A stretch of DNA of 23,609 nucleotides from a virus. Under the pieces are notes generated by a model that was not told where the DNA came from, did not search any database, and saw only the letters and a list, made by a program, of their open reading frames with translations. Shown here in pieces: positions 1 to 10,236 of the stretch (position 1 is the stretch's first letter; each line of letters starts with the position of its first letter). The position numbers and the translations under genes are program-made. The stretch is taken from the IMG/VR virus record IMGVR_UViG_3300044635_001006, positions 1-23,609 of that record; one strand, written 5' to 3'.

Positions 1-362
1 GATTTTAAAAAGTTGTGCCGTGCCCACTTTTCACTCTCGGAATCGTTAAACGACTCAAGGAAGTTCGGCCAGCCGCCCATGCTGCGAATCGTCGCGTTAA
101 TGCGTTGATCGCCAAAGTCGATCCACTTGTAAGGGCCGATGGCAACCGCTCGCTGCACGTCGCTCCAAGCCTCTACGGCTCGCGTATCCTCCGCAACGTT
201 GACGCCGGCAAGCTCCCGAAGCTCGGCAGGTCTCGGCATTCGCGGCAATTCGCGGATCGCCCGAAGTACCGCCGTTTGCATTTGCTCTGGCTCAAGATCG
301 ATCATCGCCAAGGAGTAAACTTGCACCATCGCCTCCGTCGGCTCCACTTGGTGGGCCTGCAT
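1..362 (-). CDS. DUF6475-like phage protein, cut by the left window edge
   Basis: The frame is open from an ATG at 362 through the left edge, giving 120 codons without a stop. Segments RPAELRELAGV, AW..V..A, KWIDFGD and GGWPNF, ending in EKWARHNF, match my memory of the DUF6475-type proteins that often follow phage replication initiators. Their role is unknown, though replication is likely from context. The ATG at 362 has AGAGG five bases upstream, and in-frame ATGs at 329 and 305 are less well placed. Using 362 gives a 71-bp overlap with the initiator gene, which is long but not rare in phages. The C-terminus is outside the window. Gene reality is well supported; the family name is from memory. 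Confidence 0.7.
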   Translation of the reverse strand, partial: MQAHQVEPTEAMVQVYSLAMIDLEPEQMQTAVLRAIRELPRMPRPAELRELAGVNVAEDTRAVEAWSDVQRAVAIGPYKWIDFGDQRINATIRSMGGWPNFLESFNDSESEKWARHNFLK

Positions 363-1251
363 CAATCCCTCTAACAGCGTTGTAAAGTGCTTCAAACTTT
401 CCTGACTCTGCGAATTTTTGAAAGACATTTTTTGTGTTTTCCTCGCGGATCTGTGCAAACGTCTTTGGTTGCGGCGGTTTACGATCCGCCGCTGTGGTTC
501 GGTCGCTGTTCAGCCAATCGGCTTGGAAGCCCTCCCATTGGCGTTCGGCCGCGGTTCGAATGGCTTCGTCTGCCGACATGCCAGCCTTAGCCGCTTCGCG
601 TCGGATCCTCACCAGGACTGATTCCGTAACCGGCTTGCGTCGGCACGCGGTCCAGTCTCGCCAATGGTGTTCGGAAATGTCTTCGGGTCGATCGATTGCA
701 ACCGATGGACGCCGTGTTCGCTTTTGAGAAACAGAAACTAGCGGCTCTGCCGCTTCGCTCCTTCCCCGTTCCCCTTCCTGTTCCTGTTCCCTTCCTATTC
801 CCTTCCCTTCCTCTTCCTTTCCCTTCCCTTCCCCACTGGGCGCGTAAGGCACGCGTTCGGCACGCGTGGGGCACGCGTTAACTACGCGTGGAATATCAAC
901 GAAATTGTTGGTTTCCGACGGTTCTGGCAATGTGCTCTGCGCTTCCTTGAAATTAACGACCTGATGCCGTGAAAATCCAGGAACGTATCCATATTCCACG
1001 CCTTCCGACGCGTAACGCACAACAAAACCACGCGTGGCCAACGCGTCAAGCACGCGTGAAAAATCAACGTTATCGTATGGAAGTATCTGTGCTTTGATCG
1101 ATCGCGGTCGCCATTTGAACCGGCCTTCTCGGTCGCAAATCGTCCACAAGCCAATGAACGCCAACCGTACCGGAAGCCCTTCCTTTTCTTCCAAGTCGAA
1201 GAGTTCCTCGTGGGTGAAAAACTCCGGCTTAATTGTTCGTATTCTTCCCAT
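292..1251 (-). CDS. Replication initiator-like protein (lambda O / replisome-organiser type)
   Basis: 319 residues. The N-terminal ~85 residues (GRIRTIKPEFFTHEEL, LPVRLAFIGLW, CDREGRFKWRP, VLDALATRGFVVRY) look like the winged-helix domain of phage replication proteins that recruit the helicase to the origin. A low-complexity Gly/Glu/Lys/Arg linker follows and is encoded by a long purine tract. The C-terminal third is Arg/Trp-rich. The ATG at 1251 has AGG about eight bases upstream; a GTG at 1308 in the same frame would begin inside the leader hairpin and is less likely. A promoter and structured leader precede the gene. Two ACGCGT iteron arrays lie inside it, as the origin lies inside O in lambda. 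Function is inferred from domain resemblance and context. Confidence 0.72.
   Translation of the reverse strand: MGRIRTIKPEFFTHEELFDLEEKEGLPVRLAFIGLWTICDREGRFKWRPRSIKAQILPYDNVDFSRVLDALATRGFVVRYASEGVEYGYVPGFSRHQVVNFKEAQSTLPEPSETNNFVDIPRVVNACPTRAERVPYAPSGEGKGKEEEGKGIGREQEQEGERGRSEAAEPLVSVSQKRTRRPSVAIDRPEDISEHHWRDWTACRRKPVTESVLVRIRREAAKAGMSADEAIRTAAERQWEGFQADWLNSDRTTAADRKPPQPKTFAQIREENTKNVFQKFAESGKFEALYNAVRGIDAGPPSGADGGDGASLLLGDDRS
759..834. repeat. Polypyrimidine/polypurine tract
   Basis: 76 bases on the plus strand contain only four purines (768, 780, 786, 797), with short CCCTTC/CCTTCC units. It encodes the Gly/Glu/Lys/Arg linker of the initiator on the minus strand. Such tracts can form triplex DNA or unwind easily. 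It lies directly beside the first ACGCGT array, so it may be part of the origin, though a simple linker expansion would also explain it. Confidence 0.85.
840..889. repeat. Iteron array 1: ACGCGT every 11 bp
   Basis: ACGCGT begins at 851, 862, 873 and 884, exactly 11 bp apart, and a fifth degenerate copy (GCGCGT) begins at 840, also in register. The usual context is GGCACGCGT. An 11-bp period is not a multiple of three, so codon repetition cannot produce it. It fits proteins bound on one face of the helix, as for iteron-binding replication initiators. Confidence 0.85.
1008..1057. repeat. Iteron array 2: ACGCGT in 11-bp register
   Basis: ACGCGT begins at 1008, 1030, 1041 and 1052, with gaps of 22, 11 and 11 bp, so they share one 11-bp register with one missing position at 1019. 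The spacer between the two arrays (890-1007) contains short A/T-rich patches. I saw only one other ACGCGT in the window, near 11690. Confidence 0.82.
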
Positions 1252-1262
1252 CGATCGACCTG

Positions 1263-1348
1263 AAAAAACCACCGCCCAGCAGCTTGGCCGGCTTGTGGAG
1301 ATTCCCACAGAACGCCGGGCGGTGGCTTGGATTGGTCAGCCGGCCAAG
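1263..1348 (-). promoter_or_regulatory. Initiator leader RNA with interleaved stems and T6 (attenuator or pseudoknot)
   Basis: Reading along the minus strand: A (CTTGGCCGGCT, 1348-1338), 12 nt, B (CCACCGCCC, 1325-1317), 23 nt holding hairpin TGTGG-gaatct-CCACA, C (AGCCGGCCAAG, 1293-1283), 5 nt, D (GGGCGGTGG, 1277-1269), then T6 at 1268-1263. A pairs perfectly with C over 11 bp and B with D over 9 bp, so the stems interleave. B-D plus T6 is an intrinsic-terminator design, and A-C could be the antiterminator or they could coexist as a pseudoknot. The initiator start codon is 12 nt beyond the T run. The pairings are observed and regulation is inferred. Confidence 0.75.
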
Positions 1349-1361
1349 GCTGATTTCGTAC

Positions 1362-1390
1362 ACTATAACAATCTGTCAACCTGTTCGCAA
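1362..1390 (-). promoter_or_regulatory. Sigma70-type promoter for the initiator leader
   Basis: Minus-strand -35 TTGCGA (1390-1385), 17-bp spacer, -10 TATAGT (1367-1362). The predicted start near 1355 falls a few bases before strand A of the leader. It lies in the 147-bp gap between the methyltransferase stop and the initiator. Confidence 0.6.
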
Positions 1391-1398
1391 CTAAAAAC

Positions 1399-2424
1399 TC
1401 ACTCTACTTCGCGGAAGCTATCGTGCTCCCAAGACGTATCGTCCGCATCGTCAAACGGAAGCATCGGAACGTTTTTCTTCTCCTCTTGCAATCGCAAGAA
1501 ATTGCACCCGTGTTGCCAATATGATTCTTTCAATTCAACGCCCACAAACTTTCGGCCGCACCTAAGCGACCCGACGCCCTCGCTACCGACGCCACCGAAA
1601 GGCGAAAACACGACGTCGCCCGGAAGCGTCCACAGGTCAACGGCACGCTCTATCAACCCAAGCTGTAGCGGACAGATATGCTTCTCATCGTTTTCCGTTG
1701 TCGCCAGTTTGAAGTTTAGGACGTCCGTTTGATTGATATCCCACCAAACCGGCTCCGCGTATCTTCGCCAAATATCGATCGACGGATCGGCCGCGTTTTT
1801 CTTGCGTGAAAACGGCGACGGGTGATTATCGTTTGAGCTTCCGGCCTCACCAATGTATCGCGCGAATCCCTTCGGCCTAACGATGGGCTTGTCGGACATC
1901 AAGCCGCTTCCTTCGCTTGGCGGCTTTCGAAAGACGATCAGATAATCCGCCATACCTTGCCGCACCTGCGACGTATCACGCCTAACGGTCTTGTGGAGCA
2001 GTCCGTTATTGTTGGTCCGCTCGCGCTCCGTTACGGGGCATTTCCAGATCGTTACACGCGAATGAAAGACCCAACCAGCGGCCTCGAACTCCTGAATGCA
2101 AGCCCCAGGAAAGTCGATAAGCCCCGTCGTGCCGTAGACGTTCGCATATCGCGGTAAGTCCTTGCAATGGACCGCACAAAGGCGGCCCGGAACCGTCAGT
2201 CTGTAAAGCTCTTTAATCGCGAAAGCGTAGTGCCGAAAAAACTCTTCGTCGTTCGCTGCGTTGCCCATGTCGTTTTCTGAATCGCTGTAGATGTACAGCG
2301 AAGAAAACGGCGGCGAGTGAATGCAAAAGTCGATCGAGTTATCGGGCAAGTCCCGCATAAGGTCAACGCAATCGCCGTTGTAGAATGTCCAATCCGTTCC
2401 GTGCTGTTCGTTCATGCAACTCAT
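1399..2424 (-). CDS. DNA adenine/cytosine-N4 methyltransferase
   Basis: 341 residues. Motif IV, HSPPF (residues 36-40), a variant of the (D/S/N)PP(Y/F) catalytic motif, comes first. The AdoMet-binding motif I, FSPFGGVGSEG (about 273-283) followed by FVGVELKESY, is near the C-terminus. This is the beta-class order of amino-methyltransferases that make N6-methyladenine or N4-methylcytosine. The protein probably protects phage DNA from host restriction; no cognate nuclease is visible. The ATG at 2424 lies just after the helicase stop with AGG eight bases upstream; a GTG at 2433 in the same frame is the alternative. Target site cannot be told. The pair with the helicase suggests a modification or replication module. 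Confidence 0.88.
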   Translation of the reverse strand: MSCMNEQHGTDWTFYNGDCVDLMRDLPDNSIDFCIHSPPFSSLYIYSDSENDMGNAANDEEFFRHYAFAIKELYRLTVPGRLCAVHCKDLPRYANVYGTTGLIDFPGACIQEFEAAGWVFHSRVTIWKCPVTERERTNNNGLLHKTVRRDTSQVRQGMADYLIVFRKPPSEGSGLMSDKPIVRPKGFARYIGEAGSSNDNHPSPFSRKKNAADPSIDIWRRYAEPVWWDINQTDVLNFKLATTENDEKHICPLQLGLIERAVDLWTLPGDVVFSPFGGVGSEGVGSLRCGRKFVGVELKESYWQHGCNFLRLQEEKKNVPMLPFDDADDTSWEHDSFREVE

Positions 2425-2425
2425 T

Positions 2426-3823
2426 TCATACACCTGCCTTTGATTTTAAGAAACTAGGAATCGTCGGAACCGCCGACGCCGATAAACCGACCCTCATCAA
2501 CTCGGCTTGATTGCCAAGTCCGAACTGCCTAACAACTTCCGCCATCGACGCCTGCATCAAGCCGTGATCGGCACCCTTTCGGGCAATGCTCTTTTCGATG
2601 TTCGCATCCGCGTCGCTGCCGATGATATGAACCTTGACCGGTCGCGTTTGGCCAAATCTCCAAGACCTTCGAACGGCCTGATAATACTCTTCAAACGAAA
2701 ACGAAAGCGACGCAAACACTTGCGTATTGCAAACCTGAAAGTTCAGCCCGACGCCAGCGATAGACGGCTTTGTCACCAACACCGGAAACTGCCCTTCGGC
2801 AAATCCTAAGAGTAGATCCTGCTTTTTCTTCTCCGGCATCGACCCGCGAACCTCAACAGCCCCGTCGACATGCTTCATCAGTTCCGAAGATTCGTAATCG
2901 GTGTAACACCAAACGATTGCCGGCCGCTCTGACTCACGCACAATCTCCGCAACTCGCTTAGCTCGCTCGGTGTTGGTCCGCCGCTTTTCTTCGTGGATGT
3001 TCGTCGCCGAAATTCCTTCGACGTCGAATAGAAAGCCATCGGCGACGCCATCATATGCAACGCTAACAATGTGTCGCTCAACGGTCAGTGGTGGCAAGAT
3101 GTAGCCGTCGTCGCTAGCCCCAAGATCGGATGGACGCGAAAGACAAACCGCCCACGAGGTTACCCATCGCCAAAAGTCCTTTTGAGCGTGTTTCTTCAAG
3201 CGGTAGCCGCCTGCTTTCATCGTGTCGTTGATAAACCAACGCGAAAGCATTTCGTTCGACGGCATGACCCCAAGAAAATCGGCGTGGTTGCCCAGCTCTT
3301 TGTGGTCATTGGGCGCCGGTGTCGCTGTGCATGCCAAGCGGTATGGCGTTTCGCGATATGAGTCGATCAACTCTTGCTTGATCTTCCCGGTAAAATTTTT
3401 GAGGATCTGCGATTCGTCAAGCACAACCCCTGACCAAATCGAAGCGTCAAACTTGTGGAGCTTTTCGTAATTGATGAGGTTAATGCCCTCGACAATTTCA
3501 CTCTGCTCATCGACCACGGCAACGGGCGTTTCGATGCCAAACTTTTCGGCCTCTCGCTTTGTTTGGGCTCGAATGCCAACTGGCGTATGAATCACAACCG
3601 GCCGCTTCGATCGCTTGCAAACCGCGTCAGCCCAGGCTAACTGCTGAATCGTTTTCCCTAGGCCAGTATCTTCAAATAAAGCCGCTCGGCCACGCTGTAG
3701 CGACCACTGGACGCATTTGGCCTGCCAGCCCTTTAGGGCCTTCGGAAGCTCGCCAACCGCAACCTCAAAGCCCAGCGGCCTTGCCGATCGCACCTTCGAT
3801 CGGATGAATTCTTCGTAATCCAT
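2426..3823 (-). CDS. SNF2-family DNA helicase/translocase
   Basis: 465 residues. Motif I (Walker A) is DTGLGKT (52-58), motif II DESQ (136-139, SNF2-like variant of DEAH), motif III CTATPAPND (165-173), motif V GVGLNFQ and motif VI QAVRRSWRFGQ (382-392). The QxxRRxxRxGQ form is typical of SNF2-like phage helicases. It hydrolyses ATP and moves along double-stranded DNA, in phages usually for replication or recombination. The ATG at 3823 has only a weak GGTG Shine-Dalgarno. It is preceded by its own promoter and a structured leader ending in T5, so its expression is probably controlled there. The methyltransferase follows immediately. Confidence 0.9.
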   Translation of the reverse strand: MDYEEFIRSKVRSARPLGFEVAVGELPKALKGWQAKCVQWSLQRGRAALFEDTGLGKTIQQLAWADAVCKRSKRPVVIHTPVGIRAQTKREAEKFGIETPVAVVDEQSEIVEGINLINYEKLHKFDASIWSGVVLDESQILKNFTGKIKQELIDSYRETPYRLACTATPAPNDHKELGNHADFLGVMPSNEMLSRWFINDTMKAGGYRLKKHAQKDFWRWVTSWAVCLSRPSDLGASDDGYILPPLTVERHIVSVAYDGVADGFLFDVEGISATNIHEEKRRTNTERAKRVAEIVRESERPAIVWCYTDYESSELMKHVDGAVEVRGSMPEKKKQDLLLGFAEGQFPVLVTKPSIAGVGLNFQVCNTQVFASLSFSFEEYYQAVRRSWRFGQTRPVKVHIIGSDADANIEKSIARKGADHGLMQASMAEVVRQFGLGNQAELMRVGLSASAVPTIPSFLKSKAGV

Positions 3824-3832
3824 TTAAACACC

Positions 3833-3920
3833 AAAAAGCCACCGGCGGCGCGGCGTAGCGGGCCAGCCTAGATAGGCACGAAGGCACCGCCGGTGGTTGT
3901 GTTGTTGTGAGCCCGCTACG
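3833..3920 (-). promoter_or_regulatory. Helicase leader RNA with interleaved stems and T5 (same geometry as at 1263-1348)
   Basis: Minus strand: A (CGTAGCGGGC, 3920-3911), 14 nt, B (CCACCGGCGG, 3896-3887), 23 nt holding hairpin GCCT-atct-AGGC, C (GCCCGCTACG, 3863-3854), 5 nt, D (CCGCCGGTGG, 3848-3839), C, then T5 at 3837-3833. A pairs with C over 10 bp and B with D over 10 bp, all perfect. The order and the 23-nt and 5-nt spacers equal those of the initiator leader, while most paired bases differ. The helicase ATG is 9 nt beyond the T run. Confidence 0.75.
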
Positions 3921-3929
3921 GCTTCTAAA

Positions 3930-3957
3930 ATCTTAACGCATTGTCAACCGCTGACAA
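3930..3957 (-). promoter_or_regulatory. Promoter for the helicase leader, overlapping an inverted repeat
   Basis: Minus strand -35 TTGTCA (3957-3952), 16-bp spacer, -10 TAAGAT (3935-3930), which is 5/6 and 4/6 to consensus. The predicted start near 3923 falls just before strand A of the leader. The -35 box is one half of the inverted repeat TTGTCA-N5-TGACAA (3941-3957), a possible operator. Confidence 0.5.
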
Positions 3958-8436: not shown

Positions 8437-9044
8437 CTTGTCACCTCTACTTTTCGAAACTCGACAACCCAGACCCAGGGATTTGCGGCCCATGATTCGG
8501 GGCCGTTAATCGATTCCCAGAGTTCGTGAAACCAGTCGCAAGGATTTTGCCCGTAAGCGAGGTTTGAGTGCGGGCGCCCCTCGGCCATTGCGTCGCCGCG
8601 GCTGATGTCGTTCAAACGCTCAACGCAAACGGCGATAATTTCCAGCGTAATGCGGGACGCAATTCTCGGCATGTGGATTGACGGCTTCCACGGCCCGCCG
8701 ATGCCGTCGCTGATCGGCGTCAGGTCTCCGTAATCCGCACGGTAGATAAACCCGCCGCCGTATTTGCAATGAGTCTCCCGCACCCAAAGCCGGTCGCCGG
8801 GTTTGCCGTAGGGCACTCGCCAATACGTTCCGCGCTCGTCCTGGAATCCCCACCCTACTATCTGGTTGTCGTGGTTTTCGAGTTCGTAAGGCGCGCGTTT
8901 GCTTAACTGCCCACCGTGCAGTTCGTCGATCCAGTCGGGCGGTTGCGGCTTGATTATCCGCCGCGTCTGCGTCTTCCGTCCGTCGATAATCGCCCGGACC
9001 ATCGGGCCGGAAAACAAAATCGGCCGTTCTTTAGGTTCGCTCAT
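8433..9044 (-). CDS. ASCH-domain-like phage protein
   Basis: 203 residues. The N-terminal RPILFSGPMVRAI, DGRKTQTRRIIKP and the later GKPGDRLWVRET and SRITLEI are the marks of a widespread phage family with a PUA-like ASCH fold, expected to bind RNA or modified nucleobases. The C-terminal WFHELWESINGP, ANPWVWVVEFRKVE completes the family pattern. The ATG at 9044 is preferred over a GTG at 9056. Ends with a GTGA overlap into a membrane protein gene. Its role in infection is not known. Confidence 0.78.
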   Translation of the reverse strand: MSEPKERPILFSGPMVRAIIDGRKTQTRRIIKPQPPDWIDELHGGQLSKRAPYELENHDNQIVGWGFQDERGTYWRVPYGKPGDRLWVRETHCKYGGGFIYRADYGDLTPISDGIGGPWKPSIHMPRIASRITLEIIAVCVERLNDISRGDAMAEGRPHSNLAYGQNPCDWFHELWESINGPESWAANPWVWVVEFRKVEVTR

Positions 9045-9508: not shown

Positions 9509-9919
9509 CTAATTGCCCATCGACTCCCAGTGCGAAAGCGTGTCGCTGTCTAGGAGAAACGCATTCCCAACCTCCTCGTGCCTTCCGTTGCTGTTCACCT
9601 TGCGTCCGATCTGCTCACCCTTGGCGTTGACTCTCGCCTGTAGCAAGCAGACTCCTCCGTGAGCGGCGGGGTTGTAGTTCCTGCTCGATACGCTGCCGGT
9701 GAAGCCTACGGCAGCGATCGTCTCGAATTCGCTTGGTGGTTGCTCTTCCACAAACTTGCGAAGGCCCGTCATTGATCCGTCACGGGTGATCGTCGCCTGC
9801 ATCGGACCAGTGCTATGTGACATAAACTCAATCACAACACTTTCGGCTGCCTTGTCTTGTGCCATAAATTTAACGGCTGCTTGGTAGGCGTCATTGATGC
9901 TGCGTAGTTGGTTTTCCAT
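9509..9919 (-). CDS. Hypothetical protein
   Basis: 136 residues. Helical N-terminus (INDAYQAAVKFMAQD), beta-rich middle, and a Gly/Asn/Arg-rich C-terminus (NPAAHGGVCLLQARVN, RKVNSNGRHEEVGNAF). No family recognised. Its leader of about 25 bp (9920-9944) is nearly identical to that of the gene at 9997-10236, including a GAGAA Shine-Dalgarno-like stretch. Confidence 0.68.
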   Translation of the reverse strand: MENQLRSINDAYQAAVKFMAQDKAAESVVIEFMSHSTGPMQATITRDGSMTGLRKFVEEQPPSEFETIAAVGFTGSVSSRNYNPAAHGGVCLLQARVNAKGEQIGRKVNSNGRHEEVGNAFLLDSDTLSHWESMGN

Positions 9920-9949: not shown

Positions 9950-9998
9950 AACCTAGACGCCTCGCGGCGTTTCGCCCTTCCGGGCTCGTCAGTAGGTT
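9950..9998 (-). other. Branched RNA structure with two GNRA-type loops
   Basis: Minus strand: AACCTA (9998-9993) pairs with TAGGTT (9955-9950). Inside lie two perfect hairpins, GCCC-GGAA-GGGC (9985-9974) and ACGCC-GCGA-GGCGT (9970-9957). Both loops fit GNRA. It overlaps the stop codon of the upstream gene and precedes the leader repeat. There is no poly-T, so it is not a classical terminator. Confidence 0.6.
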
Positions 9999-10236
9999 AG
10001 CGGGCGGCAAGCTTGATCGCTTGCGTAACGTTGTCACAGTAGACGCCTGCGGTGTAGTCGTGAACGATGTCGTCGCTATCGCAAGCGGCTCGAACGCGAA
10101 CGGTTTGAATCGTCTCTTCGCTTCCGGCGGTCAGTTCGATAACTCGAAAACCTTTCTTTGCCGAAATCCTTCGACCAACGGCAGTAACTTCAAATCCGGC
10201 CTTGACTAGCTTCTTAGTTGCGTTTGCGGTCGTCAT
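9997..10236 (-). CDS. Small hypothetical protein
   Basis: 79 residues: helical start (TTANATKKLVKAG), then beta strands (FEVTAVGRRISAKKGFRVIE) and VYCDNVTQAIKLAAR at the end. The compact alternating pattern suggests a small alpha/beta fold. No family recognised. The ATG at 10236 follows the second copy of the CAGCAAaCGAGAA leader. Confidence 0.68.
   Translation of the reverse strand: MTTANATKKLVKAGFEVTAVGRRISAKKGFRVIELTAGSEETIQTVRVRAACDSDDIVHDYTAGVYCDNVTQAIKLAAR

Follow-up and report, generated by a model that had tools for sequence, protein, structure and literature searches.

Two phage leader RNAs with the architecture of the C4/CI antisense systems fused to a candidate intrinsic terminator

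The window analyzed in this study is a stretch of 23,609 nucleotides from a virus (IMG/VR record IMGVR_UViG_3300044635_001006, positions 1 to 23,609), and it contains two minus-strand leaders, at 1263-1351 and 3833-3923, in which sequence inspection revealed four ordered segments, A-B-C-D, with A complementary to C and B to D. Each of these leaders is probably a compact, self-contained relative of the C4 RNA of phage P1 and the CI RNA of phage P4, that is, an attenuator with antisense feedback. Both directly precede genes of one phage replication module in this 23.6-kb virus record. Leader 1 lies upstream of the gene for a phage replication initiation protein of 319 aa (292..1251, minus strand, ATG 1249-1251, MGRIRTIKPEFFTHE...; PHROG 16167, E 6.6e-46). 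Leader 2 lies upstream of the gene for an SNF2-family phage DNA helicase of 465 aa (2426..3823, minus strand, ATG 3821-3823; Pfam SNF2-rel_dom 7.6e-12 and Helicase_C 1.2e-9; phrog_62 1.1e-60), which is followed by an N6/N4 DNA methyltransferase gene (1399-2433; Pfam N6_N4_Mtase 6.7e-14).

Leader 1 opens with a 5' hairpin (AGCC-TTGGCC-GGCT, 1338-1351) that presents the target 'a' and has the position of the c4-a1b1 hairpin of relatives, with segment A at 1338-1348. Segment B (1317-1325), the 5' strand of the C4-type closing stem and putative terminator, follows 12 nt after A, and the 23-nt B-C gap holds an inner hairpin (TGTGG-GAATCT-CCACA, 1294-1309), the counterpart of C4 hairpin P3, whose stem has a compensated change in the relative L003. 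Segment C (1283-1293), the antisense a', forms 11 bp with A, and after a C-D gap of 5 nt the leader ends in a candidate intrinsic terminator (1263-1277) consisting of segment D (1269-1277) and a U-run of six T (1263-1268). Leader 2 is built in the same order on the same strand, with the 5' hairpin presenting 'a' at 3910-3923 (AGCC-GTAGCG-GGCT; segment A, 3911-3920), segment B at 3887-3896 (14 nt after A; 5' strand of the closing stem and putative terminator), the inner hairpin at 3866-3877 in a 23-nt B-C gap (GCCT-ATCT-AGGC, with the stem reading GCTC/GAGC or TCCC/GGGA in relatives), segment C, the antisense a', at 3854-3863 (10 bp with A), and, after 5 nt, segment D (3839-3848) with its U-run as a candidate intrinsic terminator (3833-3848). 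On re-inspection, all gap lengths and T-runs given for the two leaders in the initial annotation were correct. The exact spacings of 23 and 5 nt, although present in both window leaders, did not extend to the class as a rule, as relatives had C-D gaps of anything between 0 and about 24 nt. Given this variation, and since a/a' segments of the C4/CI type may also pair between molecules, the argument that a 5-nt C-D gap would strain a pseudoknot is a weak one.

A consensus scan placed sigma-70-like promoters just upstream of both leaders, TTGCGA-17-TATAGT at 1362-1390 and TTGTCA-16-TAAGAT at 3930-3957 (both minus strand). These are consensus matches only, and they would place segment A at or near the RNA 5' end, which for leader 1 falls at or just before the 5' hairpin. 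The A-B-C-D strand order resembles the HDV double pseudoknot, a comparison already drawn in the initial annotation, and a self-cleaving ribozyme of HDV-like topology was therefore considered. The comparison found no support, since no HDV-type Rfam family matched, there was no invariant core, and no sequence was conserved between A/C variants. The position of the 5' strand at the predicted transcript start also argues against such a ribozyme, which was rejected and which we regard as hardly credible.

The four-segment layout is far beyond chance. When both strands of the whole window were scanned, two crossing helices of such strength were found only at these two sites, and when a T-run was required, their weights were 67 and 63.5, compared with a top weight of 54.5 among 150 dinucleotide shuffles of the window. 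The B-D stem with its T-run has the form of an intrinsic terminator (a G+C-rich stem with the U-run directly after it) and was part of the minimum-energy fold in 16 of the 16 leaders examined. Since the C4-type B-D stem ends in a U-run, this stem is likely also an intrinsic terminator. Taken alone, B-D and the U-run would look the same in a plain long-loop terminator with accidental upstream complementarity. However, 41 long-loop terminators that were picked without regard to A included 11 in which the A-C pairing reached p <.05 and 6 in which it reached p <.01; together with the compensatory changes in A-C and b-b' reported below, this makes the plain terminator a very improbable explanation.

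Protein searches of IMG/VR led to several hundred related loci, which were scanned for the layout before an ORF. The first scan yielded 37 non-redundant candidates, compared with 7 when the sequences were reversed, and a second, independent locus set gave 30 leaders against 0 in the reversed control, the reversed sequence being an imperfect control. Because the scans demanded a T-run, the frequency of U-runs in the class is biased upward. In total, about 30 distinct sequence types were found in environmental phages, before replication, helicase, HNH, and methyltransferase genes, and the genes downstream comprised replication initiators, SNF2 helicases, HNH nucleases, methyltransferase-type genes, and a PAPS-reductase-like gene. 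The A/C sequences of different types were usually unrelated, yet still complementary. Different a/a' pairs also occurred inside single phages, with two in the window and two each in L123, L342, and L150, which fits separate circuits.

The pairings were borne out by covariation. In the 14 sequences of the window type, A-C and B-D were 100% paired, with 5 (A-C) and 7 (B-D) pairs changed on both sides, and pairing fell to 28-47% when the helices were slid. In the HNH-gene type (25 leaders, 34 pairs), 93.8% of the positions were paired, compared with 40-50% in the slid helices, and 22 pairs were changed on both sides, including pairs of a separate b:b' helix; covariation alone does not distinguish pairing in cis from pairing in trans. 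The covariance model R1 was made from HNH-type leaders and R2 from the R1 matches, and neither contains the a:a' pairs. Nevertheless, leaving aside a few marginal matches at E >= 0.1, their matches outside the seed landed on leaders with a:a' complementarity, and R2 located a second leader in the phage of L150 (L438), with a 9-bp a:a' pair. Neither R1 nor R2 matched the window's two leaders, P4, or P1. The prediction that a covariance model would find further members held with these two HNH-derived models, and the proposed class of covarying stems upstream of replication genes is real, with compensatory changes in relatives. As far as sequence comparison reaches, the pairings, the terminator-like form, and the class membership of the relatives are thus established. 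No Rfam family matched the leader class at its gathering score, and since no leader reaches the score set for any current family, the class is missed by annotation.

Several observations bear on the distribution of the leaders. A third leader of the window type was present in close relatives (L005 7423-7544, L008 4697-4818), with its own A/C and B/D segments, before a gene starting MTDPPQIDYPKRDKF. Two sets of near-identical leaders, one comprising L100 4875 and L421 2382 and the other L208 3887, L167 1366, and L420 2389, were found before different genes (a replication initiator as against a ParB-like/methyltransferase-type gene), and the A/C changes were compensatory. Leader modules therefore seem to move between genes. 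Pseudoknot scans of eight known isolate phage records with a related replication gene gave no convincing leader, and DNA similarity searches with three leaders as queries found no leader elsewhere. The bacterial genome collection yielded only a few candidates. The best of these, L252 3881 from a Eubacteriales MAG, was a clear leader whose A-B gap contains an ATG; it stands upstream of a replication initiator on a contig of a bacterial genome, which extends the class beyond viral contigs.

In many relatives there is a further pairing, between the inner-hairpin loop b' and the region where a leader peptide starts; the stop codon of this peptide overlaps or abuts the downstream gene. The b:b' helix of the HNH type joins this loop to the bases just before the AUG of the leader ORF; pairing of b' with the leader-ORF start region was present in the HNH type and several rep-type relatives and absent in the window leaders. 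Where an AUG lies in the A-B gap, the ORF extends across B, C, and D. In ten leaders (L100, L149, L150, L163, L182, L353, L380, L421, L422, and L429), the end of this ORF overlaps the gene by ATGA, and in many others it stops three bases short of the gene start. Neither of the window's leaders has a leader ORF or a clear b:b' pair, and the leader ORF is also absent from L087, L167, L208, and L420.

The leaders of the IncI-alpha RepY/RepZ systems likewise combine a hairpin loop that pairs downstream, an overlapping leader peptide, and a replication gene. Unlike the leaders described here, they are not known to have an intrinsic terminator or a C segment in a terminator-stem loop. A translational switch of this kind, in which translation of the leader peptide would open B-D, a pseudoknot between loop A and C would activate the main gene, and the U-run would be incidental, could explain why most leader ORFs of the ORF-bearing relatives overlap the main start by ATGA or end just before it, and why b:b' covers the leader start. 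We nevertheless consider it rather improbable, since such an ORF is missing from the window leaders and since unrelated relatives also have a U-run after the stem, an observation qualified by the T-run that the scans demanded. Another system with partly similar parts is IsrK/orf45/anrP of Gifsy-1, which has a leader RNA with an intrinsic terminator, a read-through mRNA, a short ORF whose translation is coupled to the gene that follows, and a terminated RNA that acts in trans (PMC4825925). In IsrK, the terminator lies ahead of the short ORF and the short RNA has an activating role, whereas in the leaders any ORF that is present extends across the terminator.

The closest architectural parallel is the C4/CI antisense system. 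Antisense immunity of this type has been described in P1, P7, P4, some prophages, and Acinetobacter sRNAs, and C4 itself is processed by RNase P to an RNA of about 77 nt and acts in trans. The initial annotation had suggested a new regulatory RNA class; the class and its covarying stems are real, but it is not wholly new, as its anatomy is that of the C4/CI system of P1 and P4. The 3' half of the leader has the same fold as P1 C4 and P4 CI RNA, with a closing stem, a hairpin carrying b', and a' directly after, and the 5' half matches the C4/CI target, with 'a' in a hairpin loop and then 'b'. The closing stem, the enclosed hairpin, and a' directly after them were found in both the window type and the HNH type, by covariation and by comparison with P1 and P4.

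In P4, the order on the minus strand is a (8657-8672), b (8635-8653), b' (8455-8466), and a' (8441-8450), so that CI with its targets seqA/seqC has the same succession of a and b, then the closing stem with the b' hairpin, then a', an order that P1 shares, and the P4 target likewise sits in a hairpin loop where the RNA begins. Pairing of CI with its targets leads to premature termination of the phage replication genes (PMC4825925). The P4 target is more than 100 nt from the CI RNA, whereas the leaders hold target and antisense in one RNA of about 100-130 nt. Likewise, CI is a processed RNA with a second target after it, whereas the leaders have a U-run at the end of their closing stem and showed no second target. 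The P4 CI a/a' heptamers GTGAGAA/TTCTCAC (L431, P4 7200-9600) were identical in many HNH-gene leaders from environmental phages, which may reflect common descent or coincidence. In C4, b' covers the ribosome-binding site and a hypervariable a' of 7-11 bp sets the specificity (PMC5320573). The P1/P7 C4 and c4-a1b1 RNAs resemble the leaders in the closing stem, in b' in the hairpin loop with a' after it, and in the covering of a small-ORF start region by b'. In contrast, C4 has a P2 hairpin, which the leaders lack, the window type lacking b:b' and the ORF as well, and C4 controls ant, whereas the leaders precede replication, HNH, helicase, and methyltransferase genes. No terminator-fused layout was seen in the P1 c4 region examined.

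The Rfam models recovered both P1 and P4, and the C4 model (RF01695) scored 68.8 bits on P1 and 74.9 bits on P4 as positive controls; among 19 relatives that carry a leader it matched none at E <= 1, and the window was not matched either. The c4-a1b1 model (RF03163) fell precisely on the 5' hairpin in L163 (E 9.4e-6), L182 (0.0016), L100 (0.010), and L110 (0.027), all sub-threshold, at 12.7-21.2 bits against a cut-off of 46.7; matches below the cut-off also came up in 9 of 14 control genomes. This model did not match the window's two leaders. Since the C4/CI order is present in both halves, yet the C4 model matches no leader, we regard the leader class as a variant that would work like C4/CI and not as a member of RF01695. 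The window leaders represent a reduced form without an ORF, and architecture is their only link to C4/CI. The new feature compared with C4/CI is the fusion of target and antisense in one leader, with the C4-type stem ending in a U-run.

Folding of partial transcripts in which C had just emerged predicted A-C in the minimum-energy fold of 12 of the 16 leaders. In the complete leaders, B-D was formed in all 16 and A was back in its own hairpin; as B-D is the favored helix there, A-C never appeared when a complete leader was folded to its energy minimum without knots. The modeled order is thus A-C before D emerges and B-D afterwards. The same order, and the U-run directly before the start codon, would also be expected of a purely cis-acting terminator/antiterminator switch, in which a protein, a ligand, or the speed of RNA polymerase decides between A-C and B-D and no antisense acts in trans. 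We consider such a switch unlikely, as no conserved ligand-type sequence core was seen among the A/C variants, and the C4/CI layout and the hypervariable a/a' argue for RNA-RNA recognition. Moreover, A-C and B-D share no bases, so their exclusion would be only topological.

With P4 and P1 as analogues, attenuation with antisense feedback could proceed as follows. Transcription would begin just before the small hairpin with the target 'a' in its loop and continue into the C4-type stem (B-D), which holds the inner hairpin, and then the antisense a', and the C4-type stem with the U-run, immediately ahead of the start codon, would also serve as an intrinsic terminator. While the RNA is still growing, A-C would pair before D emerges, favoring read-through, whereas once D is out, B-D would be more stable and transcription would terminate. 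Attenuation would follow if anything frees or blocks C as D emerges. The terminated leader of about 90-100 nt would carry a' and could pair in trans with the 'a' of new transcripts, blocking their A-C pairing and, with b/b' in the relatives, also leader-peptide translation; with A-C blocked, termination would be favored. The replication initiator and the helicase would thereby come under negative feedback or immunity control, each leader having an a/a' specificity of its own. Termination, a:a' switching, and action in trans are all argued here from the analogues. Regulation by a terminator, as initially proposed, remains the best reading of the terminator-like B-D stem and U-run, although termination itself is only suggested by analogy.

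On a broader scale, it is quite possible, if still short of probable, that several early genes of environmental phages carry leaders of about 100 nt that combine target, terminator, and trans repressor, with their own a/a' codes, as independent RNA feedback or immunity circuits whose modules pass between unrelated genes. If compact, terminator-fused leaders do occur in several copies per phage, each with its own specificity, before replication, helicase, HNH, and methyltransferase genes, RNA-based attenuation would be a common means by which phages time or limit replication and exclude related phages, and the a/a' code would predict which phages should cross-repress.

Elsewhere in the window, a complete hammerhead-ribozyme-like core was observed at 9950-9998 on the minus strand, with 27.4 bits in the Rfam Hammerhead_1 model against a cut-off of 34. 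Its parts are CTGACGA, stem II GCCC-GGAA-GGGC, GAAA, stem III CGCC-GCGA-GGCG, GTC, and stem I AACCTA/TAGGTT. The element lies between the ORFs 9509-9919 and 9997-10236, in the same sense as both, and has 97-100% identity in three related contigs.
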